Assembly (NCBI RefSeq): GCF_035920345.1
Contig: NZ_CP109149.1
Span: forward strand, 5,022,001-5,086,000
DNA length: 64,000 nucleotides
Origin: Nocardia vinacea
GTDB lineage: Bacteria; Actinomycetota; Actinomycetes; Mycobacteriales; Mycobacteriaceae
Direction: 5' to 3'
The notes beneath the pieces are model-generated. The model was not told the DNA's origin. It did not search any database and saw nothing but the letters and a program-made list of their open reading frames with translations. This document shows, piece after piece, positions 24,667-42,069 of this stretch. Position numbers and translations under genes: made by a program. Every line of letters begins with the position of its first letter. Positions within the stretch are counted from its first letter, which is position 1.

Positions 24667-24704
24667 GAGTGGAGCTAAGGGGACTCGAACCCCTGACCCC
24701 CACA
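24667..24704. repeat. att site, displaced 3' half of tRNA-Ala
   Basis: From gagtggagctaagggg to cccctgacccccaca, identical over 38 bases to 42123-42160. It contains the T-stem/loop and acceptor 3' strand of tRNA-Ala on the minus strand, but the 5' half of the tRNA is missing beyond it. This is the outer crossover product of the integration. Confidence 0.9.
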
Positions 24705-24843
24705 TTACGAGAACTCATGACTACCGCAGACAACTACGAACGACTCTACCGTCGGAAAAATATCATCTGACCAGCTCATACGACGACAATCGACTACTCA
24801 GGACTATCGAACACACATTCGGTAGATCGCTACGTTGGTGGGA

Positions 24844-24865
24844 TTTGTTGGGACTTAGTTGGGAG
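24844..24865. repeat. Paired 11-bp arm-type repeats, left end
   Basis: TTTGTTGGGAC (24844-24854) directly followed by TTAGTTGGGAG (24855-24865). The second is identical to 42045-42055 and the first nearly matches 42056-42066. Their position inside both ends of the element fits arm-type binding sites of the integrase. Confidence 0.6.
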
Positions 24866-25468
24866 CATCCTGCGGCTGGCACCGGCGTGTCTAATCCGTG
24901 ACACGCCATGACTTTCCACTATTGGTTAACCATCAGCTACGCGGACCGGTTTTTCACCTGGTTGCCGGGGCAGCGGTCAATGCGGGTAGGTGCGGCGGTT
25001 TGGTTGTGACGGCTGACGGCGAGTTCGCCGGTGTAAGCACAGAGTACGGCTGCACCATCGGTTTGAAGGTGGCCCGCGCGACGCTGACTCACCGAGACCA
25101 GGCCGAACACCGGCATTTACGGCGGGATGGAGCACAGCTCGCGGGGTGACATTTCGGTTACGCACTCCTTCTATTGCTCGCCTGGACCAGTGACCGATGG
25201 CGGGCGGGTGTATGGGAGTCTGCGCAGGTCGGCGCAGGATTTTGTTAGCAGCGGGGTTGTTCAACTGCAAGCCATCCCGCGAGGGATGGTGCGGTAGCAC
25301 CGGTGGATGGCCACGAACATCTCCCCGAATATCGACACGAGCCCGAGAACCTATGTAACGCTTGCTCATCAAGCAGGGATAGATGCGAAGTGCAGTCCGG
25401 CACAAGGGGTTAGGCGCAGGTAGCCGGGTGCCGATCTATGTCTAAGCGGCGGACGAGAGGGAGGGCCA
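24866..25468. other. Left-end region of the element, non-coding
   Basis: About 600 bases without a convincing gene. A frame at 24898-25149 (starting MTRHDFPLLVNHQLRGPVF) has no RBS. Two back-to-back hairpins, CATCCC-GCGA-GGGATG (25273-25288) and GGTGC-GGTA-GCACC (25288-25301), lie 170 bases before the ATPase gene and could shape its leader or end an upstream transcript. Confidence 0.4.
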
Positions 25469-27601
25469 ATGGTCAGGCGCCGGAACAAGAGGTCGAAGCA
25501 GGTGGCATCCGCTAAGGCCGGCACTCCGGCTCCAACCGCAACGCCTGATCTCGTTCAATCTGCTCCTCAGATCGTCCCGAAACTGCCCAAAGACGCGATA
25601 AAGCGAATTAATATCGGCCAGTCCTTCGCTGAGTATGATGCGGCATTAGATGATCCATCGATCTACGTTCATACACCAGCACTTGCCGCCGCAGCAGACC
25701 CTGCGAGCGGAAAAGTCTTCTTTGTGGGTCGCCGAGGAACTGGAAAGACTGCTATTCGGAGGTACTGCGACCTCAACGGCGGCGAAACCAAGGTGATTGT
25801 ACCGGAAATATTCAGCCCTTCATCAACTCTGCAGGATGTTGAGCTTCTTAGAAACGCAAAGCAGAAGCCATTTCGTTCACTGGTATCAGCTTTCCGAAGA
25901 GCGCTTCAAGTTGAGGTGATTTCGATCTGGCTGGACAGTTATTCCGCACGTCTGGTAATCCCCGTTGAGGTTCAGCAGGAGTTAGATACTTTTGCTGACC
26001 TTGACTTTGACTTGCGCTGCCTTCAGGCGATATCGCGTATTGGCGGAGCTTTAGCGGACGGTGACGATGAAAGATGGCTGCGTGAGAACAAGGTGGCCAA
26101 ACAGGTAGCCGATGGAATCAAAAAAATGTGGTCTAATGTGCTGACCACACAAACCGTTTTGATTGATAGCATAGACGATTACTGGGAAGGAAGCGACGAA
26201 GGGCTCGTCTACCTGACGGCGTTCATGCACGCATGCCAGGAAGTGTCTACCCAGATTCCCAAGGCTCGTACGATTCTATTTTTGCGAGAGAACATATTCG
26301 AACGGGTCAGAGCATTGGATACCGAGTCATCTCGCATTGAGACTGCCGTGGTGGGAATGGAATGGACCGAGCGCCAACTGCTTGAGGTTGTCGAACGTCG
26401 ACTCAATAGAAATCTTACGGCAAAATTCGATCTAAAGGGAGGCACTTGGCAGGCATTCTTTGAACGGCCGGAGGATGCCTGGCGAAGCGTACTCGATTAC
26501 TGCCAGCGGCGACCACGAGATGTTCTCATTTACGCCAGTAATGCAGTAGAAGCAGCTCAGACTGCTGGACATGACCGAATTCTAATAGAGGATGTTCAGC
26601 AGGCGAGAAGGCGCTTCTCCGACAACCGTTTTAAGGACCTGGGTGATGAGTACTCGGAAAATTACCCGCGCATAGCGACCGTGCTTTCCCGCTTCTATGG
26701 TCTAGGAACGGCATATACATTCGGAGGAGTCGAGTCCTTTATTAGAATGCTTCATAACGATCCGGAAGTATTGAGACTCTGCGGTTCGTGGATTTATGAG
26801 AACTCATCTCCCGAGAAATTCATCAGACTACTTTATGACATCGGATTTGTCGGCATACGGAGCGAAGGCAAAGCACCGAAATTTCGCGCGCTCGGACCGA
26901 TGGATACCAGTCCACCTCCTGTTGCGGATACGACCGATGTAATTATTCACCGATGCTACTGGGATGCTCTAGATCTTCAGGATCGACTAGTTCGCGATCT
27001 TTCTGGGAAGAAGGAGTTTGGGAAGATTGGAATTATCGAGGATCTTCCCGGCGGCCTCGACCCCACCGAATATGCTGATAGTATAGAAATGACTATCTCG
27101 ACGTTGCAAGAGTTGCCATTGGGAACTAGTGGAGCAACGGACTTTGAAGAGGTGGTCGGCGACGTCCTGAAGCTTTGCTTCTTCCGAAGTCTTGTAAATG
27201 TTGAAGAGCGAGTCAGAAATCATAATGGGCGAGTAATTCGAGATTGGATTGCGTCGAATCGAGCTACTAGCGGCTTCTGGGAATCGGTACGCTCACGATA
27301 CGGCGCCAACCAGGTTATCTGGGAATGCAAGAATTACGACGAATTACATGCCGATGACTTCCATCAGCTCGCTTACTACATGACCGAGGCAGCGGGAAGG
27401 TTTGTGGTTCTGGTATTTCGCGGCGAGATGAAGCCAAGCTATTACGAACACATGCAGCGGGTGATGGCAAATACTAAAGGACTAATTCTCCCCCTGAACT
27501 CTAAAGATCTAATGGTGTTTCTTCGTCAAGCACTCAACGGAAAAATCAAAGAAGATCATATCCAAGATCGTTACGATGGCGTAGTTCGGAAGCTTTCGTA
27601 G
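25469..27601 (+). CDS. P-loop ATPase with C-terminal PD-(D/E)XK nuclease domain (putative defence)
   Basis: A 710-residue protein after gagggagggcc. Residues about 80-390 form a P-loop ATPase: Walker A GRRGTGKT near 86-93, Walker B-like VLIDSIDDYWEG near 230, then an arginine-rich helical part (YCQRRPRDVLIYASNAVEAA). Residues about 560-650 hold FEEVVGDVLKLCFFRSLVN, IRDWIAS and QVIWECKNYDE, that is E...D...ExK of a restriction-endonuclease (Mrr-like) fold. GC is clearly below that of the host genes. STAND-like ATPases fused to nucleases are typical phage-defence proteins. The ApeA-like gene follows 132 bases downstream. The exact family was not identified. Confidence 0.75.
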   Translation: MVRRRNKRSKQVASAKAGTPAPTATPDLVQSAPQIVPKLPKDAIKRINIGQSFAEYDAALDDPSIYVHTPALAAAADPASGKVFFVGRRGTGKTAIRRYCDLNGGETKVIVPEIFSPSSTLQDVELLRNAKQKPFRSLVSAFRRALQVEVISIWLDSYSARLVIPVEVQQELDTFADLDFDLRCLQAISRIGGALADGDDERWLRENKVAKQVADGIKKMWSNVLTTQTVLIDSIDDYWEGSDEGLVYLTAFMHACQEVSTQIPKARTILFLRENIFERVRALDTESSRIETAVVGMEWTERQLLEVVERRLNRNLTAKFDLKGGTWQAFFERPEDAWRSVLDYCQRRPRDVLIYASNAVEAAQTAGHDRILIEDVQQARRRFSDNRFKDLGDEYSENYPRIATVLSRFYGLGTAYTFGGVESFIRMLHNDPEVLRLCGSWIYENSSPEKFIRLLYDIGFVGIRSEGKAPKFRALGPMDTSPPPVADTTDVIIHRCYWDALDLQDRLVRDLSGKKEFGKIGIIEDLPGGLDPTEYADSIEMTISTLQELPLGTSGATDFEEVVGDVLKLCFFRSLVNVEERVRNHNGRVIRDWIASNRATSGFWESVRSRYGANQVIWECKNYDELHADDFHQLAYYMTEAAGRFVVLVFRGEMKPSYYEHMQRVMANTKGLILPLNSKDLMVFLRQALNGKIKEDHIQDRYDGVVRKLS

Positions 27602-27733
27602 TTTGCTTATCTGCTTCCAGTCATTGTGGGTCGCAATATTGGCCACCATATGCCCGTGTACCGCACAGGCAATTTCCGATCCCGAGCACATGTTGCTAAT
27701 GCCGGCAACGTGGCTATTGGAGGTACGCGAGGA

Positions 27734-29152
27734 ATGACAGCTAGGCATATTCCTGGAGATTTTTGGCACGCCGCGACCAGAATGCGCTCAGATGGAGAGA
27801 TCGTCTTAGGCGACTACGGGCAGCGACCTGTTTTATCTGTTCACCGACAGATAATTCAGGAAAAGGCCGTCAAGATAACACGTATAGGCGACCACGAATT
27901 GCAGGCGGCATACGGAGGCAGCCCCACCGATATCGTAGAAGACTACAAGCCACGCACTTTCCTCGGCGAGGCCGAGGATGGCACCAAACTTACCCTGATC
28001 GGTGCGCAGGGTGGCTACAATCTCACGGGACTTCATGGATTGGGGCAAGAGTTCAGATGCTACGCAGTAGTGGAAGGCGACCATGTGGACGAATACCAGA
28101 GATACTCGCATGCAAGATATCTATTCGATGGCCCCTGGAAGAATGTGGTCATCTCTGACAGAGAATCATTCCACGCTATCGGCGGAGGCGGCCTGGAGGT
28201 CTATCGACAAGAAGCATCAACTTGGATTGAAGTGCAAGCGTCCAACGGTGCGAGCCTCAGGGAGTACGAAACCCGTATCTTAATTCCGTTGATGTCATTC
28301 TTGGCAGTTGCAGGGCAGTGCAAGATTTCAGTATCAAGGATGAATGTCCGGAGTAACTCAGATTCGCCATGGCTTGAAGTTCATCCATCACGCTCGCCGG
28401 AATTCCCGGCGCGCGCCTCTCGTCCTGGCCCCATTCCGATAAAGCATCTCACCCTGGAGCGCGCAGCTAGTTGGATCGATGCCAGCGAGAAGGCGGAGGG
28501 TCTGATTGAAGCTCTTGCCGGGCTTGACGAATCGTTGCCCATTGAGACTCAAGTAATTACACTTGCGGCAGTAGCAGAGGGCATGCATCGGAGATTCCAT
28601 TGCGATAAGGTGGCATTTCCAGAACTGAACAAAGCGCAAAGAAGGGCAGTGCGGAAAGCCGCAAAAGATGCTGCTACCGCACAACTTGCGGAATTTGGAA
28701 TTAATGACCATGATCGTATCGACCCTGCCTTGGACGGCCCATTGGCCCAGATAAACGATATGAAATTCCGAGAACGTATGCGAGAGTTAGCGGAAGTTGC
28801 ACGATGCTTTGACCCGGAAATCGTTTCAGATTTCCACGACTGGACAAAATCGGTAGCCGAAATCAGGAACAAGTTCGTGCACCAATTGATGGACGATGAC
28901 GACGAATGCGAACAACCATGGAATCCGGAAGAGTCGCGGGTCGAGAAGCAAAAGTTCTACAATCTGGCGACTGCGGTCGGATACTCACTTTCGTGGGTTC
29001 TCAAACTCAATCTGCTTGCACACGGAGGATTCGAGCGCGGACTAGTCAGTTCCGAGATTTTGCAGTATGAGCCCTACGAGTATTCACGAGCCTATGTTGC
29101 CAGTTTAATTTCAGATAGCGCTGCTCGGAGTAAAGGCGGTATTCAGGATTAG
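27734..29152 (+). CDS. ApeA-like HEPN-domain protein (putative abortive-infection protein)
   Basis: About 472 residues from ATG 27734 (MTARHIPGDFWHAATRMRSD), preceded by ggaggtacgcgagga. In-frame starts at 27626 and 27650 are weaker. The N-terminal half is beta-rich with PGDFW and GLHGLGQEF-type patterns, as in ApeA N-terminal domains. The C-terminal half is helical and carries EIRNKFVHQL, an R-x4-H motif of HEPN ribonucleases, near residues 377-382. ApeA proteins protect against phage, probably by cutting RNA. AT-rich like its neighbour. It probably forms a defence module with the ATPase-nuclease, though it could act alone. Confidence 0.7.
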   Translation: MTARHIPGDFWHAATRMRSDGEIVLGDYGQRPVLSVHRQIIQEKAVKITRIGDHELQAAYGGSPTDIVEDYKPRTFLGEAEDGTKLTLIGAQGGYNLTGLHGLGQEFRCYAVVEGDHVDEYQRYSHARYLFDGPWKNVVISDRESFHAIGGGGLEVYRQEASTWIEVQASNGASLREYETRILIPLMSFLAVAGQCKISVSRMNVRSNSDSPWLEVHPSRSPEFPARASRPGPIPIKHLTLERAASWIDASEKAEGLIEALAGLDESLPIETQVITLAAVAEGMHRRFHCDKVAFPELNKAQRRAVRKAAKDAATAQLAEFGINDHDRIDPALDGPLAQINDMKFRERMRELAEVARCFDPEIVSDFHDWTKSVAEIRNKFVHQLMDDDDECEQPWNPEESRVEKQKFYNLATAVGYSLSWVLKLNLLAHGGFERGLVSSEILQYEPYEYSRAYVASLISDSAARSKGGIQD

Positions 29153-29696
29153 CGACCAAGCTTCAAAGATCTAGAGCTTAGGTGGCAAGCCCCGGAGGGG
29201 CGCGGCAGCACTTTCTAGTACGGGGGCACCGCTGTTGTGCTGGCTCGGTCCCCATCATCCTGGTGGGTGTGCCGGGGTGCCCGCCTGGGAGCGGAGCGGG
29301 AGGGCGGGCGCACCGGGCGGCGCGCGTAGCGCGCCGCTCTTGATTCTGTAGAGGGAAATTCGGCAAGTTCTCTTACTTGGGTTTCCGGCTTCTTTTTCTT
29401 CTTTTTCTTTCTCTTCCGGGGGCTCCCAACTCTTCTCACTCTTCTACATGAACCCATCAAGCTTGCGGCACAAAAGATTTCGCGGGACTGATCGGATTCC
29501 CCGCACATCCAGCGACGCACCCCGGCAGGCACCTACGGCGCAAGGCTCCAGGAGTGGGGCGCCGAATCCGGCAGGACGGGGAACTCACGCGTGCCGGGAT
29601 CAGGTGACGAAGGCCCCCTCGCCTCGAGGTCTGTTCTGGAACGGCACCTCCGTGCGTAGGGAAGAGTCCCTTCGCAGCTTGCGCTGGGAGCCTGGA
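29153..29696. other. Non-coding stretch between convergent cargo blocks
   Basis: About 540 bases separating the plus-strand defence genes from the minus-strand peptide operon. It holds the hairpin at 29317-29337 and a 29-base pure pyrimidine run at 29389-29417. No frame here has a credible start or codon use. Confidence 0.5.
29317..29337. terminator. Hairpin between convergent operons
   Basis: GCGGCGCGC, loop GTA, GCGCGCCGC: a perfect 9-bp stem followed on the plus strand by TCTTGATTCT. Suitable to end transcription from the ApeA-like gene, and possibly from the opposite operon. Confidence 0.5.
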
Positions 29697-30248
29697 TCAG
29701 GTCGGTTGCAGCATGATCGCGCGCCCGGTCCAACTGGCCCAGAACCGTCGCGCCGGAACCTCCGAATGCTCGGCACCCCATCGGGACGGGTCGGCGAATC
29801 CCGCGATGGTGTCACCGTCGCGGTCTGCCTCGCCGGTAAACACGATCAGGTGTCCGCCCTGGCGTCCGTCTTCAGGCAGTTGCCACGTGCACGAGATGAT
29901 GCTGGGTATGCCGTCAGCGGCCATACCCTGAAGCGTGGAACGGTCGACCGCTTCGGCAGTACCGGCGAGGCCGTGCCGTGTGGCCAGCGCGACCAGTCCG
30001 GCGTGTGTCCAGCCCACCCCGGTGGCATACGCGTTGGTGGCCAACCCCTCTCGGAGTAGTTCACGCTGTAGCGGCACCGGCAGGCCATGGAACCGGAGCA
30101 GCATTCGCAGGCACGCAATGCCGCAACACCGATCGCCCCATGTCTGTGGGCCACCATCGGGCCATGGGAAACCGGGGTCATCGGTTTCGTCGTCGGTGAA
30201 GTGTTGCGGGAACCGGTGGACATCCAGCGGAAGGCGGTGCAATCTCAC
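29697..30248 (-). CDS. C39-like cysteine peptidase (Peptidase_C39_2 type)
   Basis: A 183-residue protein with GTG start (MRLHRLPLDVHRFPQHFTDD). Papain-like C39 motifs: Gln35, Cys41 and/or Cys42 in GPQTWGDRCCGIACLRML, His133 in QGGHLIVFTG, Asp153 in FADPSRW. No transmembrane or ABC-transporter part is attached, unlike bacteriocin exporters. Such stand-alone enzymes cleave double-Gly-type leaders or act as acyltransferases. The GTG overlaps the end of a 14-codon ORF. Last gene of the small-peptide operon, 76 bases after the ATP-grasp gene, so it likely trims or condenses a peptide product. Confidence 0.8.
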   Translation of the reverse strand: MRLHRLPLDVHRFPQHFTDDETDDPGFPWPDGGPQTWGDRCCGIACLRMLLRFHGLPVPLQRELLREGLATNAYATGVGWTHAGLVALATRHGLAGTAEAVDRSTLQGMAADGIPSIISCTWQLPEDGRQGGHLIVFTGEADRDGDTIAGFADPSRWGAEHSEVPARRFWASWTGRAIMLQPT

Positions 30249-30289
30249 TCCGTTCGATCCGGGGTAGCCAGCCCAATGTAGGGCAACAT
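30245..30289 (-). CDS. Possible 14-codon ORF coupled to the C39-like gene
   Basis: Reads MLPYIGLATPDRTE and stops at a TGA overlapping the GTG of the peptidase. The RBS is weak (ttggggcg). It could be a translational coupling leader or a tiny peptide. Size alone gives it a fair chance of being accidental. Confidence 0.25.
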   Translation of the reverse strand: MLPYIGLATPDRTE

Positions 30290-30324
30290 CGCCCCAAGCT
30301 GGAGCGAAGGGCCGCGGTTACTGC

Positions 30325-31320
30325 TCAACAAACGGATCGGACGACCCACGGAGGACGAACCCCGTTCTCGATCGCATCCGCGAGCAGCATCAGGATCAGC
30401 TCCCGATATCCGATTCCGACCGCGTGGGCCGCAACCGGCAGATTGCTGTGCCGCTGCACACCGGGAGTCGTGTTCACCTCTAGCGCGTATGCGATACCAG
30501 CCGTATCGACCATGTAGTCGATACGGATTGCGCCACGGCACTCCAGGAATCCGTATACCGCCAGCGCACCGAAGGACATCGCGTCGAGGGTGGGCAACGC
30601 CAGATCATCGGGAACCTGATAGGTAACCGCTGGGCCATCGCCGCCGCCGAGCTTGGTTTCCTCGTCGTAGTAATCGCGTTCGGTGATCACTTCCAACGGC
30701 GGCAACGCTTTCGGCCCGGTCGGAGTGCCGAGCACCGCAACCGTCATCGCACGACCGACGACGAACTCCTCGAGGAAGAATCGGCGAAATCCGCGCTCAC
30801 GGAATCGATGCGCCGCATTGGCGACTTCGGCCAGAGTCTCGACTCGTTGCAACCCGACGCTAGAGCCGCCGTCGACCGCTTTCAGCATCGCGGGCATCGG
30901 GAACACCGGGACCGCCGATTGCGTGATCAGCCCGGAGTCGCGCAGTGTCGGGATGCCGACGTATTTGAACACCGCCTTCGAGGCCAGCTTGTCCGCACCG
31001 ATACTGCCCGGGAGAACACCCGACGACGTGTAGGGCACGTGCAGGTAGTCCAACAGACCTTGCAGACGGCCATCCTCACCCCAGGGGCCGTGGACGTTCA
31101 CGTATGCGACGTCGAACGTACGGACCCGCTCAACGAAATCGGCGGCGGTCGGGTCGAGGTGCTCGGCATCGATACCGGACTCGGTGAGGGTTTCCATGAT
31201 CGCAGTCAGCGACCATTTCTCGTGCGGTGTATTGAGAATGTAGACGCGATCCTCTTCTGAGACCGGCCCGTACAGGACTGCGACGCGCACGCCCTTCAGA
31301 CTCGCGGGGACGTTGATCAT
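30325..31320 (-). CDS. ATP-grasp ligase, D-Ala-D-Ala ligase (Ddl)-like
   Basis: A 331-residue protein starting MINVPASLKGVRVAVLYGPV with AAGGAG seven bases upstream; earlier in-frame starts lack an RBS. Ddl-family motifs are complete: HGPWGEDGRLQGLLDYLHVP (N-lobe), KAVDGGSSVGLQRV (Gly-rich ATP loop), FFLEEFVVGRAM, IRIDYMVDTAGIAYALEVNT followed by TPG (metal and ATP site). It forms an amide bond through an acyl phosphate. In a mobile element beside tiny ORFs and a C39-like peptidase, a role in joining amino acids to a peptide is more likely than cell-wall synthesis, but D-Ala ligation for resistance cannot be excluded. Confidence 0.85.
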   Translation of the reverse strand: MINVPASLKGVRVAVLYGPVSEEDRVYILNTPHEKWSLTAIMETLTESGIDAEHLDPTAADFVERVRTFDVAYVNVHGPWGEDGRLQGLLDYLHVPYTSSGVLPGSIGADKLASKAVFKYVGIPTLRDSGLITQSAVPVFPMPAMLKAVDGGSSVGLQRVETLAEVANAAHRFRERGFRRFFLEEFVVGRAMTVAVLGTPTGPKALPPLEVITERDYYDEETKLGGGDGPAVTYQVPDDLALPTLDAMSFGALAVYGFLECRGAIRIDYMVDTAGIAYALEVNTTPGVQRHSNLPVAAHAVGIGYRELILMLLADAIENGVRPPWVVRSVC

Positions 31321-31489
31321 GTCCGGCTCCTTCGGGATGACTGGGGGATCTCTGGAACACATGTCCGAGGCGCGCCGGTTAGAAGCAACCATCGGTCGAT
31401 CGTGCATGAGGCAATCGAATACGCTGTGTAGGTAGATGATTCGGCCGAGTGGGTGCCCGCACTCCTGGGAACACACTGTTCGGACGCGA

Positions 31490-31792
31490 TCACCGTTCCC
31501 CGCCGGATCGCGGCACAATCCCTGCTGGAGTCACCAGATCGCACGCCAATGCGACTGCCTTCGTGTGTCCGCCGAAGTGGGCTAGGTCGGGGGTTAAGAT
31601 GGCGGAAGCTCCTGCCTTGCAAACGGTTTCGACTATCAGTGTCGTCGGCATATAGGTGTCGGTACCGATGGTGAGCAGTCCGGCTAGCTCATAGCCTTGG
31701 CGCTGCGCCAGATGTCTGATCACCTGCTCGTACCGTTGCCGATCCGGTCCGGTGATTTCGAGCAGCAGTAGACCGATTGCCTTGGGTTGCAT
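31490..31792 (-). CDS. Small protein with resolvase-like fold, no catalytic Ser seen
   Basis: A 100-residue protein starting MQPKAIGLLLLEITGPDRQR after aaaggaag. The pattern (AIGLL..., QRYEQVIRHLAQRQGYELAG, then an alternating beta-alpha run ending ITPAGIV-like) resembles the N-terminal domain of serine recombinases seen in short actinobacterial proteins lacking the catalytic Ser and the DNA-binding tail. That resemblance is inference. It sits in the operon between the 25-codon ORF and the ATP-grasp gene. Possibly regulatory. Confidence 0.65.
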   Translation of the reverse strand: MQPKAIGLLLLEITGPDRQRYEQVIRHLAQRQGYELAGLLTIGTDTYMPTTLIVETVCKAGASAILTPDLAHFGGHTKAVALACDLVTPAGIVPRSGGER

Positions 31793-31830
31793 GGGTCTTC
31801 CTTTGCTCGCGCTCTCCGCTCCCACCCCCG

Positions 31831-31908
31831 TCAGGATGCAACCGCATCGCCGCGCCAAATCTGCTGAGCAGTCTCGTTGTCGAAACCCTCGTCGTCACTG
31901 AGGCCCAT
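31831..31908 (-). CDS. 25-codon ORF, candidate precursor peptide
   Basis: Starts MGLSDDEGFDNETAQQIWRG and ends DAVAS before TGA. Its ATG overlaps the TGA of the 97-residue gene (TGATG), and GAAGGA lies eight bases upstream, inside that gene's end, so it is clearly translated in coupling. Acidic first half, one Trp and one Arg, and a small-residue tail: features of a peptide substrate rather than a folded protein. Too short for domain recognition. The ATP-grasp and C39-like genes follow. Confidence 0.6.
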   Translation of the reverse strand: MGLSDDEGFDNETAQQIWRGDAVAS

Positions 31909-32201
31909 CAGTGGTGTCCTTCCGGTGAATTCGTGTGCTCGCGGTGGCGGTGGGTTGTTGTCAGGACGGTGTCCACGACGCTGACCGGTTCGACGGTGAT
32001 CGCGTCCTGTGCGGTCGTGTCGTCGTAATCGGCGCACCAACCGTCTTGGTCCACCTCGGTTATCCCGTTGACGGAGTGGCGGAGTGTGACGCCGTCGACC
32101 GGGGCGATAGCGAGTTTCGCTGGGGTCTCTTCGTGGAACTGCGCGAGCAATTTCCATACAGACACGTCGATTTCGCGCCGCTGGCGCTGGATCTCGGACA
32201 C
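31908..32201 (-). CDS. Hypothetical 97-residue protein of the peptide operon
   Basis: GTG start (VSEIQRQRREIDVSVWKLLA), 4 bases after the previous stop; cgggag upstream. An N-terminal helix with many charges is followed by a beta-rich part (KLAIAPVDGVTLRHSVNGIT) and an acidic WCADYDDTT segment, then a His-rich tail. No known family is recognised. Its stop overlaps the 25-codon ORF. A frame extending to 32312 overlaps the upstream gene and is unlikely. Confidence 0.65.
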   Translation of the reverse strand: MSEIQRQRREIDVSVWKLLAQFHEETPAKLAIAPVDGVTLRHSVNGITEVDQDGWCADYDDTTAQDAITVEPVSVVDTVLTTTHRHREHTNSPEGHH

Positions 32202-32205
32202 TCGG

Positions 32206-32520
32206 CTACGCTCCCGTGGTCGGGACCGGAAGGCTGGTCCGGCGCAGCAAGACGTTCCAGTAGTCCGAGCGCACCGCGTCCCAGAGATCGGTATATCTGG
32301 GGAACGCGTCACGCGCTTCCCACAAGTTCGGCGGTCCGTCGAGAATCACCAGGCCCGGCTTTGCGGCGGGCAGTGCTGTTCCGCTGGGCCACCGGTAGGC
32401 CGGTGAGGCGTCCGCCCGATTCTGGATGTGGAGCAGCTGGCATTCGCGCCGCACAAGACGCCATGTGGCGACCTTCCGACCGTCCGGTGATTCGGTGGTA
32501 CGCAGGCGATCTCGGTTCAC
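32206..32520 (-). CDS. Hypothetical 104-residue protein of the peptide operon
   Basis: GTG start overlapping the stop of the 65-residue gene (TAGTG) with gaggtgg upstream. Sequence VNRDRLRTTESPDGRKVATW and later LVILDGPPNLWEARDAFPR, LWDAVRSDYWNVLLRR: Trp- and Arg-rich, compact, soluble. I recognise no family. Strict coupling on both sides makes it a true operon member, perhaps a partner or recognition subunit for the ligase. Confidence 0.65.
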   Translation of the reverse strand: MNRDRLRTTESPDGRKVATWRLVRRECQLLHIQNRADASPAYRWPSGTALPAAKPGLVILDGPPNLWEARDAFPRYTDLWDAVRSDYWNVLLRRTSLPVPTTGA

Positions 32521-32717
32521 TACGCCACCTCGTCGTTGGTACGCCCGGTGTCGGAGGACTCGACACCCCGACACCGGGACGATTCGGTCGACGCTGGATC
32601 AGTTCCCCACTCCCGGACCGCTTCCGCGAAGAGTTCAACCTTTTCGGCCGGTGCTCCTGTGTAGCTGCGGGGTGGCCCTACGAACGGGTCGCGTTGTTGA
32701 AGCTCGTTGTTCGGCAT
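32520..32717 (-). CDS. Hypothetical 65-residue protein, first gene of the peptide operon
   Basis: Starts MPNNELQQRDPFVGPPRSYT with ggaggtcggcag directly before ATG, a strong SD. Middle part AEKVELFAEAVREWG is helical; the tail SSRCRGVESSDTGRTNDEVA is Ser/Asp/Arg-rich and flexible. An earlier ATG at 32861 would run into the promoter region. It could be an alternative precursor (helical leader plus variable tail) or a small regulator. No family recognised. Divergent from the XRE-TPR regulator by about 200 bases. Confidence 0.6.
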   Translation of the reverse strand: MPNNELQQRDPFVGPPRSYTGAPAEKVELFAEAVREWGTDPASTESSRCRGVESSDTGRTNDEVA

Positions 32718-32914
32718 CTGCCGACCTCCGGTGCGTCGACTGCGGCTTAGGTGCGCCCGGCCCCTGAAACAAACTCTCAAGTACTGGGAGAGGGTCGTCT
32801 CTCCGGGCGCATATCTAGCTGACCATGGGAGATGTCCGGAAAAATACGAGTTGACGTCCACAGCGCGTCCACAAAACGGCCGGACGCGTTCACGAAACAG
32901 CTAGATTCGACGGT
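32718..32914. promoter_or_regulatory. Divergent promoter region of peptide operon and XRE-TPR gene
   Basis: Contains the inverted repeat CTCTC (near 32774) / GAGAG around AAGTACTGG, two GTCCACA copies (about 32853 and 32865), CTAGCT near 32814 and AGCTAG near 32900. A -10-like TAGATT (32902-32907) lies seven bases before ATG 32915, suggesting a leaderless regulator mRNA. The XRE protein probably binds here. Confidence 0.45.
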
Positions 32915-34186
32915 ATGGACGGTCTCGCCGCTGTCGTCGGCGCACAGCTTCGAGCGGCTCGCGAAGCCGCCGGGGTTTCCCTGGCCGCGCTCGCCGCTCA
33001 AATCCCGTACAGCAAGTCCGCGCTCTTCTACTACGAGACCGGACAGCGCACGCAGACACCCGATGTCATAGCGTGGTACGAAAGGCGTTTTGGTGCCATC
33101 CAAGACCCTGTAGCAACCTTGCTCAACCTTGGAAAGGCTGATGTGGAACGGCGCTCTTTCCTACGTGTCGGATACTCCACAGCCATCAGCGCATCCGTGT
33201 TGCTCCCTGGATGGCTCGACCGGGGGGCATCTGTCGCGTCGGACAAGGCGACCGGTCTTCGGCACATTGGCCAAGCCGATGTAGCCGCGGTACGAGACGT
33301 AATGGTGCTGTTCTCCCAGATCGACCAGCGACTTGGCGGCGGACATGGACGGACAGCTGTTGTCCAGTACTTGACCAATGAAGTGACCAGCTACCTGAAA
33401 GGGTCCTTTGCCAGCGACGCTGTTCGTCGTGAAATGTTCGCAGCAGCAAGCGAATTGGCATATCTGGCGGGGTGGATGGCGTTCGACAACGACGAGCACG
33501 CCGCCGCGCAGCGCTACTTCGCCGCATCGACCAAGCTTTCCGCCGAAGCGAACGATGCCCCACTGACGGGTCACGTACTGCGCGCCATGGCACACCAAGC
33601 CATCGACCTGGGTGAACCTCAGCAAGGACTACAGCTCGCCGAAGCATCAGTCAGCGGTACCCGATACCAAGCCGCCTGCCCACGTGAACGCGCGCTCTTA
33701 AAGGTTGTGCACGCCAAAGCATTGAGCGCAGCGGGTCAGAAAGCCGAGTCGGCGAAAGCCCTGCTCGAGGCCGAACGTGATCTTGCCGCCGCTTCCGACT
33801 CCGATCATGAGCCCGCTCGGGTGTTCTTCTTCTCCGAAGCGAGCCTCGCCCACGAAACCGCGTGCGCGCTACGCGATTCGGGTGACATGGCCGGTGCCGC
33901 CGAACAATTCCAGCTCAGCGTCCGCAAACGCAAAGCCACGACGTTTACCCGGACCCATGCGGTAACCCTCGGCTACCTCGGTACCGTGCAGGCCCGCAGC
34001 GGCGAACTCGAACAGGCATGCACGACATGGACATCCGCGCTCGACGCAATGGACGGCGTCCAGTCAGGGCGCACCAGGAATGTTGCCCGCGATATACGCG
34101 CAACCGTGGCACCGTACCGGCATATTGCGGGTGCGAGCGAGATCGATGAGCGGGCAAAGGAATATCTAGCCGCCAGTGGAATGTAG
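32915..34186 (+). CDS. XRE-family regulator with TPR-like repeats
   Basis: A 423-residue protein starting MDGLAAVVGAQLRAAREAAG. Residues 8-65 form a helix-turn-helix (GVSLAALAAQIPYSKSALFY). The rest is a long run of paired helices of TPR type (ASELAYLAGWMAFDNDEHAA; GYLGTVQARSGELEQACTTW). This architecture is common in actinobacterial elements and often senses a peptide or small protein. Probably leaderless. It is divergent from the peptide operon and upstream of the TrmO-family gene with a 12-base gap, so it likely controls both. Confidence 0.88.
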   Translation: MDGLAAVVGAQLRAAREAAGVSLAALAAQIPYSKSALFYYETGQRTQTPDVIAWYERRFGAIQDPVATLLNLGKADVERRSFLRVGYSTAISASVLLPGWLDRGASVASDKATGLRHIGQADVAAVRDVMVLFSQIDQRLGGGHGRTAVVQYLTNEVTSYLKGSFASDAVRREMFAAASELAYLAGWMAFDNDEHAAAQRYFAASTKLSAEANDAPLTGHVLRAMAHQAIDLGEPQQGLQLAEASVSGTRYQAACPRERALLKVVHAKALSAAGQKAESAKALLEAERDLAAASDSDHEPARVFFFSEASLAHETACALRDSGDMAGAAEQFQLSVRKRKATTFTRTHAVTLGYLGTVQARSGELEQACTTWTSALDAMDGVQSGRTRNVARDIRATVAPYRHIAGASEIDERAKEYLAASGM

Positions 34187-34198
34187 GACAGGGGTCAT

Positions 34199-34669
34199 AT
34201 GACAGACGAAGTGTTCGAAGTCGTACCGATCGCGCATGTGATCGGCGGTCGAAGCGAACCGACAGACGATCACTGGGGAGGCACCGAGACAATCATCCGC
34301 ATAGATGACCCCCGGTTCACCGAAGAGTCCGTTCAGGGTTTGGACGCGTTCAGCCACCTCGAAATCATCTTCCGGTTCCACTTGACCGATCCAACGGACC
34401 TGCACTTCGGTGCACGCAGTGCCCGCGACAACCCCGCATGGCCCAAGGTCGGCATCTTCGGGCATCGGAATATGCGGCGCGTCAACTGGCTTGGGGTTTC
34501 CCGTGCTCGACTGCTTCGCGTAGACGGCTTAGACCTACACGTAGCCGAGCTGGACGCGGTGGACGGTACTCCCGTGCTGGACATCAAGCCGTGGTTTGCC
34601 GAGTTCGGGCCGCGTGGCGAGATCCACCAGGCTCCATGGTCAACCGAGATGCTGAAAGACTACTTCTAA
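34199..34669 (+). CDS. TrmO/TsaA-family protein (SAM-dependent tRNA N6-methyltransferase-like)
   Basis: A 156-residue protein starting MTDEVFEVVPIAHVIGGRSE. Visible family features: a beta-barrel start with PIAHV, GLDAFSHLEIIFRFH (equivalent of the GLxxFSHLWLLFxFH signature), ARDNPAWPKVGIFGHR (the R.NPIGLS region of the family) and DGTPVLDIKPW (GTPVLDIKPY). TrmO methylates t6A37 of tRNA, but several relatives modify metabolites or occur in biosynthetic clusters. Immediately after the XRE-TPR regulator; a terminator follows. Either a methyltransferase of the peptide system or a tRNA-linked function. Confidence 0.82.
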   Translation: MTDEVFEVVPIAHVIGGRSEPTDDHWGGTETIIRIDDPRFTEESVQGLDAFSHLEIIFRFHLTDPTDLHFGARSARDNPAWPKVGIFGHRNMRRVNWLGVSRARLLRVDGLDLHVAELDAVDGTPVLDIKPWFAEFGPRGEIHQAPWSTEMLKDYF

Positions 34670-34697
34670 GTGGCGGCCATTGCCCTGAAGCCGAAGC

Positions 34698-34730
34698 GGC
34701 CCCCAACTTCGATGTTGGGGGCCACTTTTC
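34698..34730 (+). terminator. Intrinsic terminator after the TrmO-family gene
   Basis: GGCCCCCAAC (34698-34707), loop TTCGAT, GTTGGGGGCC (34714-34723), then ACTTTTC. A perfect 10-bp GC stem followed by a T-rich tract, 28 bases after the stop. Confidence 0.85.
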
Positions 34731-35387
34731 GGTCAACCGCTGGTATGGCTACGGGGGAACCTGCCGCAAGTGTGATGGAAATCACCCCACCTATTCTCCG
34801 TCGCTCTAGCGTGCCTTTTGAGTGCGTTCAGTCTTGTTGGGTCGGTTTCGTGCCGTTTGGTGCCGTTCGGTGCCGAATCGTCCGGTTCGGTTCCATTCAG
34901 TCGGGTTGGTTCGTTCCGATTCACTCTATGGGGCGAATTCGCGCCAAATTCCGGATAGAACAAGGGTTGTAACCGATTCGCGGGTACACGTCGGGTGCGC
35001 GATTGTGCAGGAAGGCTGGACAAGCCTCGTACTGTTGTTCTGTAGAACGATCGCGAGCGGAAGGTGGATGCTTTGTCATTGGCTGTAAACCATTGGTGTG
35101 CAAGCAGTTTCGTAACCATCGAGGCGGGTTCTCAAGTGGGAGTATGCTCGATGGTGCCGTCTTGTTTGTGAGCGATACGTGTTAGTGGCGGCCCCCGCGC
35201 GATACAGCGCTTGCATTGTCACCGAATCCTTTTCGCGCGTGTAGCGCCCGTGGCGTCGACCCGGCGGTGTCACCCTTCTTCTGAATCCTTGTTCCGGTAG
35301 CGGATTTTCCGATGCGGATGCCTTGCTGTTTGCGTGTAATGCGTGCGGCCGGTTGCGGCGTCTTCTACTGGCAGACAAGGAGATTCA
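34731..35387. other. Non-coding part of the transfer region
   Basis: About 650 bases between the terminator and the first possible small ORF. It includes the 10-bp tandem repeats. Frames on both strands lack RBSs. Likely promoter, transfer locus or regulatory RNA sequence. Confidence 0.4.
34850..34879. repeat. Three tandem 10-bp repeats
   Basis: GTGCCGTTTG, GTGCCGTTCG, GTGCCGAATC head to tail. Similar GTTC/GGTTCG-rich words continue to 34930. It lies in the non-coding transfer region of the element and could be a binding site for the translocase (clt-like) or a regulator. Confidence 0.45.
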
Positions 35388-35645
35388 GTGCTGAGCAGGT
35401 CTATCACGCAGCTGTGCCGATACATGGCATGGAGTGTGATCCACGCGACATGCGTTGGGGTTTCCCAAGATTTGTGTGAACCCAAGTTGCGGGCGTTGCT
35501 TGACGCGTGCAGCCGGGACGGGTCCAATGGAAGTGCCAGGGGATGGCTTACGGATCGGTGTTGGGAGAAAGGAGGTTCTTCCCGTGTCGCCGGGTTCCGG
35601 CCTGCCCTGGTACGAATCGGTCGATGGGCACCCGATCATGGGTGA
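35388..35645 (+). CDS. Possible 85-residue protein
   Basis: GTG start seven bases after AAGGAG; begins VLSRSITQLCRYMAWSVIHA. Cys-rich, with no clear membrane segment. It overlaps the next candidate ORF (35584) in another frame, so not both need be real. AICEs often carry small spread genes here, but no homology is visible. Confidence 0.35.
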   Translation: MLSRSITQLCRYMAWSVIHATCVGVSQDLCEPKLRALLDACSRDGSNGSARGWLTDRCWEKGGSSRVAGFRPALVRIGRWAPDHG

Positions 35646-35904
35646 GTCCCGATTCACGCGCGGAAGTGTCCGTGCCGCTGAGTGTTGCGCGGTACGTGAT
35701 GGTGTGGTTTGCCCGCGCGATTTCTGTTGTCCTGCCATGTGCTTGGAGGCTGTGGCCTCGCGTGGACATATGTCCTGGGCAATCGATGGCACACCGCGAG
35801 TGTGGGTAGGCCGCACATCTGCGGTTCATCGGGTGACCATGGTTGCTGGAGAAAAGGAGGTGAGAATTATGCGAAACGAATTACATATCGGTAATTCCGG
35901 ATAA
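35584..35904 (+). CDS. Possible 106-residue Cys-rich protein with internal strong start
   Basis: GTG 35584 is preceded by AGAAAGGAGG. The frame (VSPGSGLPWYESVDGHPIMG and later ECCAVRDGVVCPRDFCCPAM) runs to 35904. Inside it, AAAAGGAGGTGA precedes ATG 35871, which alone gives the 11-residue MRNELHIGNSG. Either one protein is made, or the short peptide is translated separately. A third frame across the middle encodes a hydrophobic stretch. I cannot decide between them. Confidence 0.35.
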   Translation: MSPGSGLPWYESVDGHPIMGESRFTRGSVRAAECCAVRDGVVCPRDFCCPAMCLEAVASRGHMSWAIDGTPRVWVGRTSAVHRVTMVAGEKEVRIMRNELHIGNSG

Positions 35905-35913
35905 GTTTCGCGA

Positions 35914-35943
35914 GCTGTCCCCCCGCGCCAACGAGGGGACAGC
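35914..35943 (+). terminator. Hairpin after the small ORFs
   Basis: GCTGTCCCC (35914-35922) pairs with GGGGACAGC (35935-35943). It ends two bases before a GTG (35945). It could terminate or attenuate transcription towards the 36265 gene. Between here and 36264 there is an open frame from 35945 with poor codon use, which I do not call. Confidence 0.5.
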
Positions 35944-36264
35944 CGTGAACGAAAAAGAAACTCCAATGCGATTGATGGTCGGTGTTGGAGTCCCCTCTTA
36001 TCACTTGTCGCAGAAACAGAGGTTCTGCTGTGTCCACAGTAGTGCATGGGGGCGTGCGTGGAAAGTCGGACGGTGCTGTCAGGTCTGGGGAGCTGGCGGG
36101 CTGGTGCCCAGGTACTGGGGTGTGTTGCGGGGCGCGTGGTCCGCCGGTTGCGCTGGTCATGAGCCCTTGACGGCGCGGTTGTCGTGCCGTGTCGTGACCG
36201 TCTGTGAGGTTGCTGACGGTCTTCTCCGAGACAGATCAGAACAGAACCCAGAAAGGCTAAGCCC

Positions 36265-36714
36265 TTGACTACTGAATCACTGAAAGATCAAAAGGACCCA
36301 CGCAAGGAATACCGGTTCCCGGTGCCGTTCGAAAATCATTTCCACGCTGGTCTCTACCAGTTGGGAGAGGTCCGTGCGGATACCGAATATACCGGTGATC
36401 CGAACCGGGTGGGACCGCACAAGCGCGACCCGGTGACCGGATTGTTGCAATGGAAGATCACCGTGAGTGATCCCGCCGTACGCAACGCCCGCCGCGCCAG
36501 CTACGAAATCACCTTGCTGGCGAATGAGGAACCGGTCCCCACGACAGCGGAGATCGGAAACAACCTCCGGCCGATCACGCTGACCGATGTCACGCTGCAA
36601 CCCCGCACCGCTGGTCAGAACGAATTCAAGTATCTCGACTACACCGTGCGCGCGACCGGATATGCCCCGGCTCCCGGTCCCCGCTCGAGCGGTTCGGCTG
36701 CGAAAAGCGCCTGA
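36265..36714 (+). CDS. Conserved-type hypothetical protein of the AICE transfer region
   Basis: A 149-residue protein with TTG start (MTTESLKDQKDPRKEYRFPV) after agaaagg. Beta-rich, soluble, ending in a Pro/Ser tail. Proteins of this size precede the FtsK/TraB gene in several actinobacterial elements; this is a positional statement, not a domain match. Followed by a strong hairpin, then the translocase gene. Confidence 0.7.
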   Translation: MTTESLKDQKDPRKEYRFPVPFENHFHAGLYQLGEVRADTEYTGDPNRVGPHKRDPVTGLLQWKITVSDPAVRNARRASYEITLLANEEPVPTTAEIGNNLRPITLTDVTLQPRTAGQNEFKYLDYTVRATGYAPAPGPRSSGSAAKSA

Positions 36715-36738
36715 TCTCAGGCGTTGACACACAAAAGC

Positions 36739-36776
36739 GGGGTGGGTCCGGCCGTCTGCGTGACCGGACCCACCCC
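36739..36776 (+). terminator. Strong hairpin between 36265 gene and translocase
   Basis: GGGGTGGGTCCGG (36739-36751) pairs with CCGGACCCACCCC (36764-36776) over 13 bp. No U-tract. Probably a terminator or attenuator that separates the two genes' expression. Confidence 0.7.
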
Positions 36777-36846
36777 ACCCAACCCTGTTGGGCGTCGTAA
36801 TCGCCTGTAGGGCAAGCAGATTCGCAACATCTCGAAAGGTTTTGTC

Positions 36847-38313
36847 ATGGTCCGTTCAGCGGAATATCAGAAACCCCCGACCGGAACACCAACGGTGTTA
36901 GACGATCTCGGCCAAGCGTTGATGTTCACCCTCGAAGCCGCGGTGCTGGGGTTGGTACATGTGCTGTGGTGGGCGTTGCTGTTCCCGATGATCTCGCTCC
37001 CCGTCGCGGCCGTGGTGGCGCTGTGGTGGTGGCTGGGCTGGCCGTACGCGGTCGGGGTGGCGGCGTTGTCGGTAGCAGGCTGGGCGTTGTGGTGGGCGTG
37101 GTGGCCGAACTCGTGGCGGCGGTGGGTGTGGGGGCGGATGCGGTCGCGGTACCTGACGTGGAAGCGCTACCGGCGCGGGTGGAAGACCCTCACCGCGCTG
37201 CACAAGCTGACGACGATCCTCGATACCGGGGTGCTGACACCACGGCTGGCGACGGTCACTATCGGTGATACCGCCGATGAGTTGCTGATCAAGCTGTTGA
37301 AGGGGCAGACCGCAGAGCAGTGGGCCAAGCAGGCCGATGCGTTGCGGCACTCGTTCGGCGCGCTGCGGGTCCGCGTGCGGCTCGCGGAACCTGGGTGGGT
37401 GCGGGTGCAGGTCATCCACACCGATCGACTCTTGGAACCGGTCGCGTTTCCTCGGGTGGAACCGAAAACCGTTGATCTGGAAGCACTCACGATCGGGTTG
37501 ACCGAGATGGGCACACCGTGGCGAGTGCGGCTGCTGGGCAATCAGATCTTGGTGGCCGGTGAGACCGGCTCGGGTAAGGGCTCGGTGGTGTGGTCGTTGA
37601 TCGCCGCGTTGGGTCCAGCTATCCGGGAGGGCTGGGTGGTGTTGTGGATGATCGACCCGAAGGGCGGTATGGAATACGGTGCTGCCCGAAAATGGTTGGC
37701 GCGCTTCGCATCCGATAACGGTCCCGGCGCCGTCGCGATACTGCGGGACGCGGTGGAGCTGGTGCAGAAACGCGGAAACACCTACATGGACAAGTGGGAA
37801 CGCAAGATCACCCCAACCGTGGATGAGCCGCTGGTGGTGGTGCTCATCGATGAGGCCGCGAGCCTGACCGCCTACTACAACGACCGCAAGATCAAAGACG
37901 AAATCTCGCGGTTGTTGGGCGTGGTCCTGACCCAGTCCCGCGCGGTCGCGGCTCCGGTCGTGGCGTGCCTTCAGGACCCGAGCAAGGACATCGTTGAGAT
38001 GAGGCAGCTTTTTCCGTGCCGGTTGGGGCTGCGCATGGCCGAACCAACTCAACCGAACATGCTGTTCGGGCCGTCCGGTCGCGACCGGGGCGCACTGTGC
38101 GACGAAATCCCGGAAACGACACCCGGTGTCGCTTACGTCCAAGAAGAAGGCTCCACCGACATCACCCGGGTACGCGCCTACCACGTCACCGACGACGATA
38201 TCCGCTGGATCATGGCCACATACCCGCTGCTACCCCGCGATACCGAAGGCAAGCCGATCGTGGACATGACCAAACCGGCCGAAACGGACGAAGATCACGG
38301 CGGAGCAGCATGA
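36847..38313 (+). CDS. FtsK/SpoIIIE-family DNA translocase (TraB/TraSA-like)
   Basis: A 488-residue protein, start ATG after cgaaagg. Two or three N-terminal transmembrane helices (residues about 20-100, GLVHVLWWALLFPMISLPV and WWAWWPNSWRRW). From residue about 220 an FtsK motor domain: Walker A GETGSGKGS (near 237-245) and Walker B VVVLIDEAASL (near 330). It pumps double-stranded plasmid DNA between mycelial cells in AICE conjugation and is the only transfer motor needed. The stop overlaps a 15-codon ATG frame of doubtful meaning. Confidence 0.9.
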   Translation: MVRSAEYQKPPTGTPTVLDDLGQALMFTLEAAVLGLVHVLWWALLFPMISLPVAAVVALWWWLGWPYAVGVAALSVAGWALWWAWWPNSWRRWVWGRMRSRYLTWKRYRRGWKTLTALHKLTTILDTGVLTPRLATVTIGDTADELLIKLLKGQTAEQWAKQADALRHSFGALRVRVRLAEPGWVRVQVIHTDRLLEPVAFPRVEPKTVDLEALTIGLTEMGTPWRVRLLGNQILVAGETGSGKGSVVWSLIAALGPAIREGWVVLWMIDPKGGMEYGAARKWLARFASDNGPGAVAILRDAVELVQKRGNTYMDKWERKITPTVDEPLVVVLIDEAASLTAYYNDRKIKDEISRLLGVVLTQSRAVAAPVVACLQDPSKDIVEMRQLFPCRLGLRMAEPTQPNMLFGPSGRDRGALCDEIPETTPGVAYVQEEGSTDITRVRAYHVTDDDIRWIMATYPLLPRDTEGKPIVDMTKPAETDEDHGGAA

Positions 38314-40437: not shown

Positions 40438-40451
40438 TCTGGAGCAATCAA

Positions 40452-40694: not shown

Positions 40695-40719
40695 ACCGCG
40701 CCCCTGAGAAGATGCGGCG

Positions 40720-42066: not shown

Positions 42067-42069
42067 ATT

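Follow-up and report, generated by a model that had tools for sequence, protein, structure and literature searches.

What would a group of seven co-directional frames, in which very small genes precede an ATP-grasp ligase and a stand-alone C39-like protein, do for a mobile element of Nocardia vinacea? The stretch analysed (hereafter the window; 64,000 nt of GCF_035920345.1, contig NZ_CP109149.1, positions 5,022,001-5,086,000 of the forward strand, within which all coordinates are counted) had received a first-pass annotation in which the seven frames are a candidate operon that ligates or trims a short peptide. The frames are indeed found on the minus strand at the places and lengths claimed, the first four overlapping or abutting (Table 1). 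The reading favoured here, with a probability of about 0.38 and from sequence comparison, is that the ligase and the C39-fold enzyme, the conserved core of the group, constitute a two-enzyme module for non-ribosomal, cell-wall-type D-amino-acid peptide chemistry, carried as AICE cargo and switched by a generic regulator module of the NsdA type.

Table 1. Features of the AICE and its cargo in the window
Feature	Position	Strand	Size	Basis or remark
AICE, att repeat to att repeat	24667..42160	no strand		38-bp repeat and Pfam domains
Conserved cargo block	29253..31827	-		35 bp before ORF100, ORF100, ligase, C39, ~440 bp downstream; blastn to L142, 93.5% over 2582 columns
C39-fold cysteine enzyme	29697-30248	-	183 aa	core gene
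Ddl-like ATP-grasp ligase	30325-31320	-	331 aa	core gene
ORF100	31490-31792	-	100 aa	family common in Nocardia; accompanies ligase and C39 on each of the two Nocardia AICEs
ORF25	31831-31908	-	25 codons	doubtful gene, not conserved; interval absent from sister AICE
ORF97	31908-32201	-	97 aa	generic small gene of regulator module; 44% homologue in sister AICE
ORF104	32206-32520	-	104 aa	generic small gene; in 51/98 Nocardia genomes
ORF65	32520-32717	-	65 aa	generic small gene; homologues adjoin ORF104 or ORF100 in several ligase-free Nocardia loci
NsdA-family HTH/TPR-like regulator, divergent	32915..34186	+		NF053720, 328 bits
TrmO-domain protein, paired with regulator	34199..34669	+		PF01980, 77.4 bits
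tra (FtsK_SpoIIIE)	36847-38313			Pfam domain
RepSA	38650-40437			Pfam domain
xis-like gene	40449-40694			without Pfam match
int (Phage_integrase)	40720-42048			Pfam domain

The AICE setting proposed at first pass is well founded. An integrase, a Tra protein of the FtsK/SpoIIIE type and a Rep protein lie between perfect 38-bp att repeats (copies at 24667 and 42123) at a tRNA gene, the tRNA-Ala being the single match of an RNA family search. The att-tra-rep-xis-int-att layout, RepSA, the tyrosine integrase at the tRNA 3' end and the NsdA-like XRE regulator are shared with pSAM2-type AICEs, as far as these are described in the available part of PMC3218068; the difference lies in the cargo, which here comprises the ligase-C39 cassette and a candidate defence pair. 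Promoter and terminator scans gave yields not above those of shuffled sequences, and DNA-level comparison with plasmids returned zero matches.

The unity of the seven frames is contradicted by a sister AICE in another Nocardia (genome G1305, locus L142), which carries identical 38-bp repeats (positions 1787 and 19693). There, ORF100, the ligase and C39 are kept as a discrete 2.6-kb block; outside it, blastn aligns only 37 bp just past its left end and 45 bp (80%) in ORF104. ORF100 is 95-96% identical between the two elements, whereas ORF65, ORF104 and ORF97 are merely 44-46% identical and accompany a different NsdA-type regulator, and the whole ORF25 interval is missing. ORF100, the ligase and C39 behave as real genes, since their dN/dS values between the elements are ~0.09, ~0.19 and ~0.15, respectively. 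ORF25 and ORF100 are separated by 38 bp, ORF100 and the ligase by ~170 bp, and the ligase and C39 by 76 bp.

The small genes are also far more widespread than the ligase to which they had been tied. Of 60 genomes searched, 36 of them Nocardia, 33 carry ORF100-like genes, every one a Nocardia; ORF104-like sequences have 11 matches within the window's own genome besides their wide occurrence in the genus (Table 1), and ORF97 homologues adjoin ORF104 in five loci (L160, L162, L164, L165 and L170); family ligases occur in 3 of 150 genomes. Outside Nocardia, the family loci read contain no homologue of ORF65, ORF97, ORF100 or ORF104 (ORF25 being too short for the thresholds used). Ligase homologues mostly without the small genes were the outcome named at first pass as refuting the operon, and with this distribution and the exchange seen in the sister AICE the small-gene operon is rejected as a unit: the tiny genes look like ordinary AICE parts, not a new peptide system. 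The sister AICE shows how such elements swap the regulator and small-gene module independently of cargo, which calls for caution before tiny coupled genes are taken for RiPP precursors.

It is very improbable that the ligase modifies a ribosomal peptide, encoded by ORF25 or another small ORF, whose leader is then removed by the C39 enzyme. Such a system is not without precedent: C39 domains cut double-glycine leaders, and these domains are the nearest solved folds to the C39 protein. Ligases of graspetides (microviridin-type) and of the pheganomycin type likewise belong to the ATP-grasp superfamily and adjoin small genes, work on microviridins, which are known graspetides, refers to ATP-grasp ligases alongside C39 peptidases, and a double-glycine peptidase is mentioned in such loci in the available part of a graspetide survey (PMC8939145), where 'Ddl' and 'D-alanine' are absent from the main text. 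The ligase considered here is of the Ddl family, and no conserved precursor gene was found beside it in the family loci read, nor any small gene common to the Nocardia and Streptomyces loci. ORF25, missing from the sister AICE, has no GG site and only chance-level tblastn matches elsewhere; a peptide in the gap between ORF100 and the ligase was also discarded, since an indel between the two elements interrupts the open stretch (by eye). Two further ORFs speak for such a peptide: S. sulfonofaciens (L021) has, 0.7 kb ahead of the ligase, an unannotated 27-codon ORF that ends in IDSAWSGGR, and L114 has a 53-codon ORF, ending FDSGWGARAGK, directly before it. As a shared Streptomyces precursor they were rejected: they are alike only in this short ending (by eye), a search of 5.8 billion proteins gave no relative for the L114 ORF, and the L021 ORF has no significant match in family loci. 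The many short GC-rich tblastx matches between upstream regions (best E 2e-13, L021 versus L115) are taken as noise because they are scattered over frames and strands.

The ligase is a genuine Ddl-type enzyme, as first proposed, with the Ddl fold and ATP-grasp domains and scores above cut-off for Dala_Dala_lig_C (103.7 bits) and Dala_Dala_lig_N (41.7 bits). It nevertheless differs from DdlA/DdlB (PF07478), falling below the curated Ddl cut-offs (PRK01372, 205 versus 243; TIGR01205, 161 versus 245.65), and it is encoded on a mobile element, where it is paired with C39, as an additional copy in a genome that has another Ddl-type gene elsewhere. In a tree with 20 Ddl-type loci, not all from the genome-contig scan, and 5 VanA-type rows (NF000206), from which the L114 ligase was left out, the family forms its own clade (support 100/100) and the window ligase falls within group 1 (26 rows, 98/93). 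A VanA identity is rejected by the placement of the five NF000206 rows elsewhere (100/100). Ddl active-site residues are retained, namely Ser and Arg in all 41 family rows, the later Ser in 40, and Glu in 40, the remaining row having a gap there. Two changes run through the whole family. The position following the omega-loop Lys, which we take to be of the Tyr216 type, is Leu in 41/41 rows, whereas 92 of 97 other Ddl-type loci have Tyr there, and Asn directly follows the later Ser in 41/41, presumably in place of the Leu282-type residue. According to the part of PMC7691350 available, Ddls making only D-Ala-D-Ala conserve the residues Ser150 and Tyr216 of E. coli DdlB, and substitutions at these positions confer weak D-Ala-D-Lac activity. 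Leu and Asn at acceptor-site positions suggest a changed substrate rather than a spare Ddl. Whether the pair edits wall precursors or makes a D-peptide, such ligases, listed in databases as 'D-alanine--D-alanine ligase', probably act on something else.

These changes make it improbable that the ligase is a resistant or extra target copy, protecting against a Ddl-directed inhibitor or against a peptide antibiotic destroyed by C39. Mobile ddl genes are known, integron cassettes with Ddl conferring resistance to D-cycloserine being described in the same partly available source (PMC7691350), and DapF, Ddl-like and MurF proteins encoded in one cluster, as in relatives, could each be target copies; however, no resistance family model was passed, the D-Ala-D-Lac ligase models listed giving 61-82 bits against cut-offs of 550-775.

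The partner is a papain-like protein that scores 28.2 bits with Peptidase_C39, above cut-off, and keeps the catalytic-type Cys42, His133 and Asp153 invariant, in line with its first description as a stand-alone C39-like protein. No signal peptide is evident by eye, and no substrate with a double-glycine site was identified. Compared with the C39 domains of ComA and PCAT1, it lacks an ABC transporter, and the Gln that ComA-type enzymes have 6 residues ahead of their Cys is not conserved; Gln15, 27 residues ahead of the Cys, is invariant instead. Its papain-fold relatives, drawn from alignment rows that re-examine Foldseek matches and not exhaustive for families, include phytochelatin synthase, CtaG (Foldseek only) and peptidases. 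We know of no C39-fold D,D-peptidase.

The linkage of the two enzymes, already suspected, is borne out by relatives: of the 18 family loci read, 16 have both ligase and C39, although these are not 18 independent cases, since most were found via the ligase and eight come from closely related Streptomyces. By tblastn, the ligase matches 2 Streptomyces plasmids (one read, L117) and seven phage records (28.7-32.6%). Among the 80 matches listed from the genome-contig scan, L021 and L063 were counted as family and the rest as Ddl-type by identity; among viral contigs, L101 belongs to the family and L102, at 32%, was not counted. Neither a phylum sample (396 genomes) nor the family of G069 (5 genomes) yielded new ligase loci. 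In group 2, DapF and a Mur-ligase protein flank the pair in 12/12 loci (in L147 only the last 52 DapF residues were matched); both DapF motifs, CGN and CGSG, are retained in all 11 of these loci that were checked. In one Nocardia, G1266, the MurF is full (TIGR01143, 419.8 bits, cut-off 288.6) and DapF also passes its model (TIGR00652, 182 bits, cut-off 114.65). That the pair recurs near cell-wall and D-amino-acid genes suggests that its chemistry concerns a small D-amino-acid peptide. The first-pass idea of a short peptide as substrate is plausible for the pair.

That peptide need not be destined for the wall. Almost as likely, though still unlikely in itself, is a pathway for a small secreted D-amino-acid peptide, a natural product of the di- or tripeptide type, which C39 would condense, transfer or trim and of which the AICE version would be reduced. 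The closest readable non-Nocardia relatives of the window cassette, the group-1 loci L021, L114 and L115, suit it better than the wall: each has an MFS gene and an L-amino-acid ligase gene (LAL_C2, ATP-grasp), two of the three have a FemAB-like gene and two (L114 and L115) a VanX-like gene, L114 adding an alanine racemase gene. The group-1 position of the window ligase and the enzymes other than peptidases among the C39 relatives argue in the same direction. Conversely, the window cassette lacks an exporter, a second ligase and a FemAB-like gene, and nothing for export was noticed in the group-2 clusters, which carry DapF and MurF-type genes. Counting against the wall, no mur, dapF, vanX, vanH or racemase gene is present in the window cassette, and in 11/12 group-2 loci the sole part of a Mur ligase detected is the C-terminal domain, without the ATP-binding domain.

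A vanH/vanX-type setting, named at first pass as an outcome that would refute the operon reading, is seen in part: relatives adjoin VanX-like, alanine racemase, DapF and MurF genes, but no vanH was noticed by eye beside family ligases, and the ligase stands outside the VanA-type enzymes. The VanX-like M15 protein of L114 reaches 43.8 bits with the VanX model, far below the cut-off of 320. The likeness to VanA/VanX is a possible shared logic, an alternative D-Ala-X ligase with a cytosolic peptidase, built here on a cysteine C39 fold as against the zinc fold of VanX.

The regulator would control the cassette without being specific to it. On the Streptomyces plasmid L117, a 46% regulator homologue and TrmO adjoin DapF-ligase-C39; among 20 Streptomyces TrmO loci read, five have an NsdA-like gene next to TrmO, and a specific association was rejected, the five pairs read further having no ligase or C39 within 6.5-7 kb.

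Under the favoured wall-type reading, the ligase, descended from D-Ala-D-Ala ligases, would use ATP to activate a D-amino acid, D-Ala or another, and couple it to a second substrate other than D-Ala, giving a D-amino-acid dipeptide or depsipeptide, perhaps through a compact VanA/VanX-like pair. The cytosolic C39-fold enzyme would hydrolyse or transfer D-dipeptides or stem peptides from the same pool. In group-2 relatives, the DapF epimerase and MurF-type ligase would complete a route to a peptidoglycan precursor; in the window, the AICE enzymes would borrow D-Ala and MurF from the host, so that the net effect would be an altered stem-peptide end, as with a minimal VanA and VanX. A bolder and rather unlikely proposal is that this is an undescribed mobile actinobacterial route to a non-canonical stem end, with a Ddl-derived ligase of changed acceptor site, C39 in the place of VanX and, in fuller versions, its own DapF and MurF. 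In the literature searched, largely non-subscription papers, no description was found of a DapF/Ddl/C39/MurF or ligase/C39/FemAB combination; the papers returned deal with essential or wall genes of other bacteria, cyanobacterial clusters and microviridins.

If the product is a D-peptide, the pair represents a rare class of small gene clusters in actinobacteria. If instead it edits wall precursors, mobile DNA would have a new way, centred on a cysteine enzyme and not on VanX, to change the target of wall-directed antibiotics or lysins.

The first-pass annotation had proposed a single peptide-modification operon of seven co-directional frames, and these were confirmed in the window, on the minus strand, with the lengths and spacing claimed. 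The identities given to the Ddl-like ATP-grasp ligase and the C39-fold cysteine enzyme are borne out, both lying over Pfam cut-offs, while the five small genes that precede them (ORF65, ORF104, ORF97, ORF25 and ORF100) gave no meaningful match in Pfam or NCBIfam. The genome consists of one contig of 10.36 Mb, of which the window covers bases 5,022,001-5,086,000. The mobile setting was also correctly recognized: FtsK/SpoIIIE, RepSA and tyrosine integrase domains exceed Pfam cut-offs, a tRNA-Ala adjoins int, and the ends of the AICE, an element of ~17.5 kb, are marked by a perfect 38-bp direct repeat. The same AICE carries a candidate anti-phage pair, namely an Sll1717-family P-loop ATPase (NF047389, 226 bits; C-terminal part matching PADLOC PDC-M36A) followed by an ApeA-like HEPN protein.

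How the seven genes hold together is best seen by comparison with a sister AICE inserted at the same 38-bp site in another Nocardia genome (L142 in G1305), whose backbone proteins match those of the window element (integrase 98%, xis-like protein 100%, RepSA 90% and FtsK 75% identity). A block that starts 35 bp ahead of ORF100 and extends some 440 bp beyond C39 is 93.5% identical over 2,582 aligned bases, and its flanks diverge until the shared backbone resumes, apart from two short matches, one of 37 bp just past the left end and one of 45 bp (80%) in ORF104. Within the block, protein identities are 95-96% for ORF100, 95% for the ligase and 97% for C39, with dN/dS values of ~0.09, ~0.19 and ~0.15, respectively. 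Directly upstream, ORF97, ORF104 and ORF65 share 44-46% identity with their counterparts, ORF25 is missing from the sister AICE, another NsdA-family protein (108.5 bits) takes the place of the regulator, and no match to TrmO was found in L142. Genome G009 (locus L134) has a regulator with 93% identity to this other one; it stands opposite ORF65- and ORF100-like genes, with neither ligase nor C39 within the 10 kb read. From the sister-AICE contrast and the G009 locus, the regulator and leading small genes are seen as one exchangeable module and ORF100-ligase-C39 as another; since the two exchange separately between AICEs, the proposal of a single seven-gene unit is not upheld. On contig C371 of G009 (loci L132/L144), an integrase 97% identical to that of the window (334 residues) adjoins genes like ORF65 and ORF100 together with further cargo, ligase and C39 being absent from the 20 kb read; this element is probably related to the window AICE.

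On sequence evidence, ORF65, ORF97, ORF100 and ORF104 are generic and not particular to the ligase. Of 60 genomes searched for ORF100-like proteins, 33 have them, and these 33 are all among the 36 Nocardia members of the set. A search of 98 Nocardia genomes found ORF104-like proteins in 51; the window's own genome has 11 matches, and a further one lies in the N. farcinica record NZ_LN868939.1. Homologues of ORF65, ORF97 and ORF104 are grouped at four loci (L160, L162, L164 and L165, the ORF65 match of the last being weaker), and neither ligase nor C39 was found within their 1.5-kb flanks. Searches of the Streptomyces loci and of Nocardia G1266 gave no homologue of any of the four proteins (best E 0.096; other search E<=1e-5), ORF25 being too short for detection at the thresholds used there. 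On a plasmid of Nocardia sp. NBC_01388 (L129), a divergent HTH regulator lies opposite seven small genes, one of them ORF104-like, and this similar series leads to other cargo (an FAD monooxygenase, a nucleotidyltransferase and two radical-SAM genes).

The divergent gene, described initially as XRE-TPR, remains a regulator but is assigned to the NsdA family by its NCBIfam match. Regulators of this kind are usual on AICEs: in an AICE survey (PMC3218068), 11 of 16 Frankia elements have XRE genes, which fall into two types, and the larger type is NsdA-like. In the window the regulator is paired with a TrmO-domain protein, which resembles a tRNA methyltransferase. An NsdA-TrmO pair with 46% and 50% identity to that of the window stands opposite the DapF-ligase-C39 cluster of L117. 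Its specificity for the ligase-C39 system was considered and rejected, as the pair recurs in 5 of 20 Streptomyces TrmO loci and neither ligase nor C39 was found there over 6.5-7 kb. Near one Streptomyces pair, a candidate isoaspartyl-methyltransferase-type protein was noticed by eye.

Coordinates of the features discussed
Feature	Location	Remarks
AICE direct repeats	window 24667 and 42123	38 bp
Candidate anti-phage pair	window 25469-29152 (+)
Block conserved in L142	window 29253-31827
NsdA-type regulator + TrmO-domain pair	L117:4622-6580; window 32915-34669; L175, L177, L185, L188, L189	Streptomyces and Nocardia
DapF/Ddl-like/C39/Mur-ligase cluster	L143:6593-10703	also L145-L152, L101, L116, L117
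82-aa protein	L101:6814-7059
Short ORF before ligase	L021:7182-7265	end IDSAWSGGR
Short ORF before ligase	L114:9763-9924	end FDSGWGARAGK
Regulator and small-gene series	L129:2934-10734	plasmid
Candidate methyltransferase-type protein	L195:1196-2419 (minus)	Streptomyces

The ligase and C39 behave differently from the small genes: judged by sequence comparison, the two form a genuine association that is rare, mobile and conserved, and an active-site change runs through the whole family. Eighteen distinct ligase-family loci were read (window, L142, L021, L114, L115, L101, L116, L117, L143, L145-L153), in a ligase-led sampling that includes eight mutually close Streptomyces clusters (L145-L152), and a C39 relative lies inside the cluster at 16 of them; none was found in L115 (whole 8-kb contig) or L153 (1.5-kb flanks only; ligase left out of the tree). 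L116 and L063, from the same genome, were counted once, and a viral contig with a 32% identical ligase (L102) and a second Streptomyces plasmid match stand outside the 18. The nearest ligase in a protein search is 94% identical (Nocardia sp. NPDC004278). At E<=1e-60, 3 of 150 Nocardia genomes have a family ligase (the window's, G1305 and G1266); counts that take in the genomes from which the searches began are 2/392 (E<=1e-90) and 10/150 (E<=1e-60) for Streptomyces, 2/397 for the order (E<=1e-80) and 1/396 for the phylum (E<=1e-85, the window's own). The C39 subfamily is rare, with 10 proteins found, the window's included, and four of the nine others seemingly come from assemblies with family ligases, a hint of more such linked pairs.

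The clusters fall into two kinds. In group 2, which includes the G1266 ligase, the order DapF, ligase, C39, Mur-ligase protein is found in 12/12 loci, the DapF match of L147 being limited to the last 52 residues. Of the 12 DapF proteins, 11 were checked, and every one of these retains the CGN and CGSG motifs. At 11/12 loci the match of the fourth gene is confined to a MurF-type C-terminal domain (e.g. PF02875, 47 bits, in L117); in G1266 this gene encodes a full MurF, over the NCBIfam cut-off. A phage-type integrase lies <1 kb downstream of the L101 cluster. Directly upstream of its DapF gene lies the gene of a protein of 82 aa, whose homologues at the corresponding place in L116, L145, L146, L148, L149 and L150 are 50-63% identical; none was found in L117, L143, L147, L151 or L152 (short flanks only for the last three). 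The group 1 loci of Streptomyces and G560 (L021, L114, L115) have MFS and L-amino-acid-ligase-type ATP-grasp genes (3/3 each), FemAB-like genes (2/3) and a VanX-like M15 gene (2/3; two tblastn pieces in L115, below the VanX model cut-off in L114). An alanine racemase gene is present in L114, and the MFS gene separates ligase from C39 in L021 and L114. Short ORFs precede the ligase in these last two loci; they are perhaps due to chance, or perhaps encode short precursor peptides.

No published description of this combination was found in the open-access literature. A RiPP system, for which microviridin clusters offer a known pairing of ATP-grasp ligases with C39 peptidases, is less likely; a target-copy resistance role is also less likely. 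Nearly as likely as the preferred reading is a secreted D-peptide pathway, favoured by the exporter and second ligase among group 1 neighbours. Across the relatives, the partner genes (DapF, MurF, alanine racemase, VanX-like) point to D-amino-acid peptide chemistry of cell-wall type as the common theme of the family. For the window, the most economical reading is that the cassette would be a stripped two-enzyme set, which may alter or clear D-dipeptides in its host.
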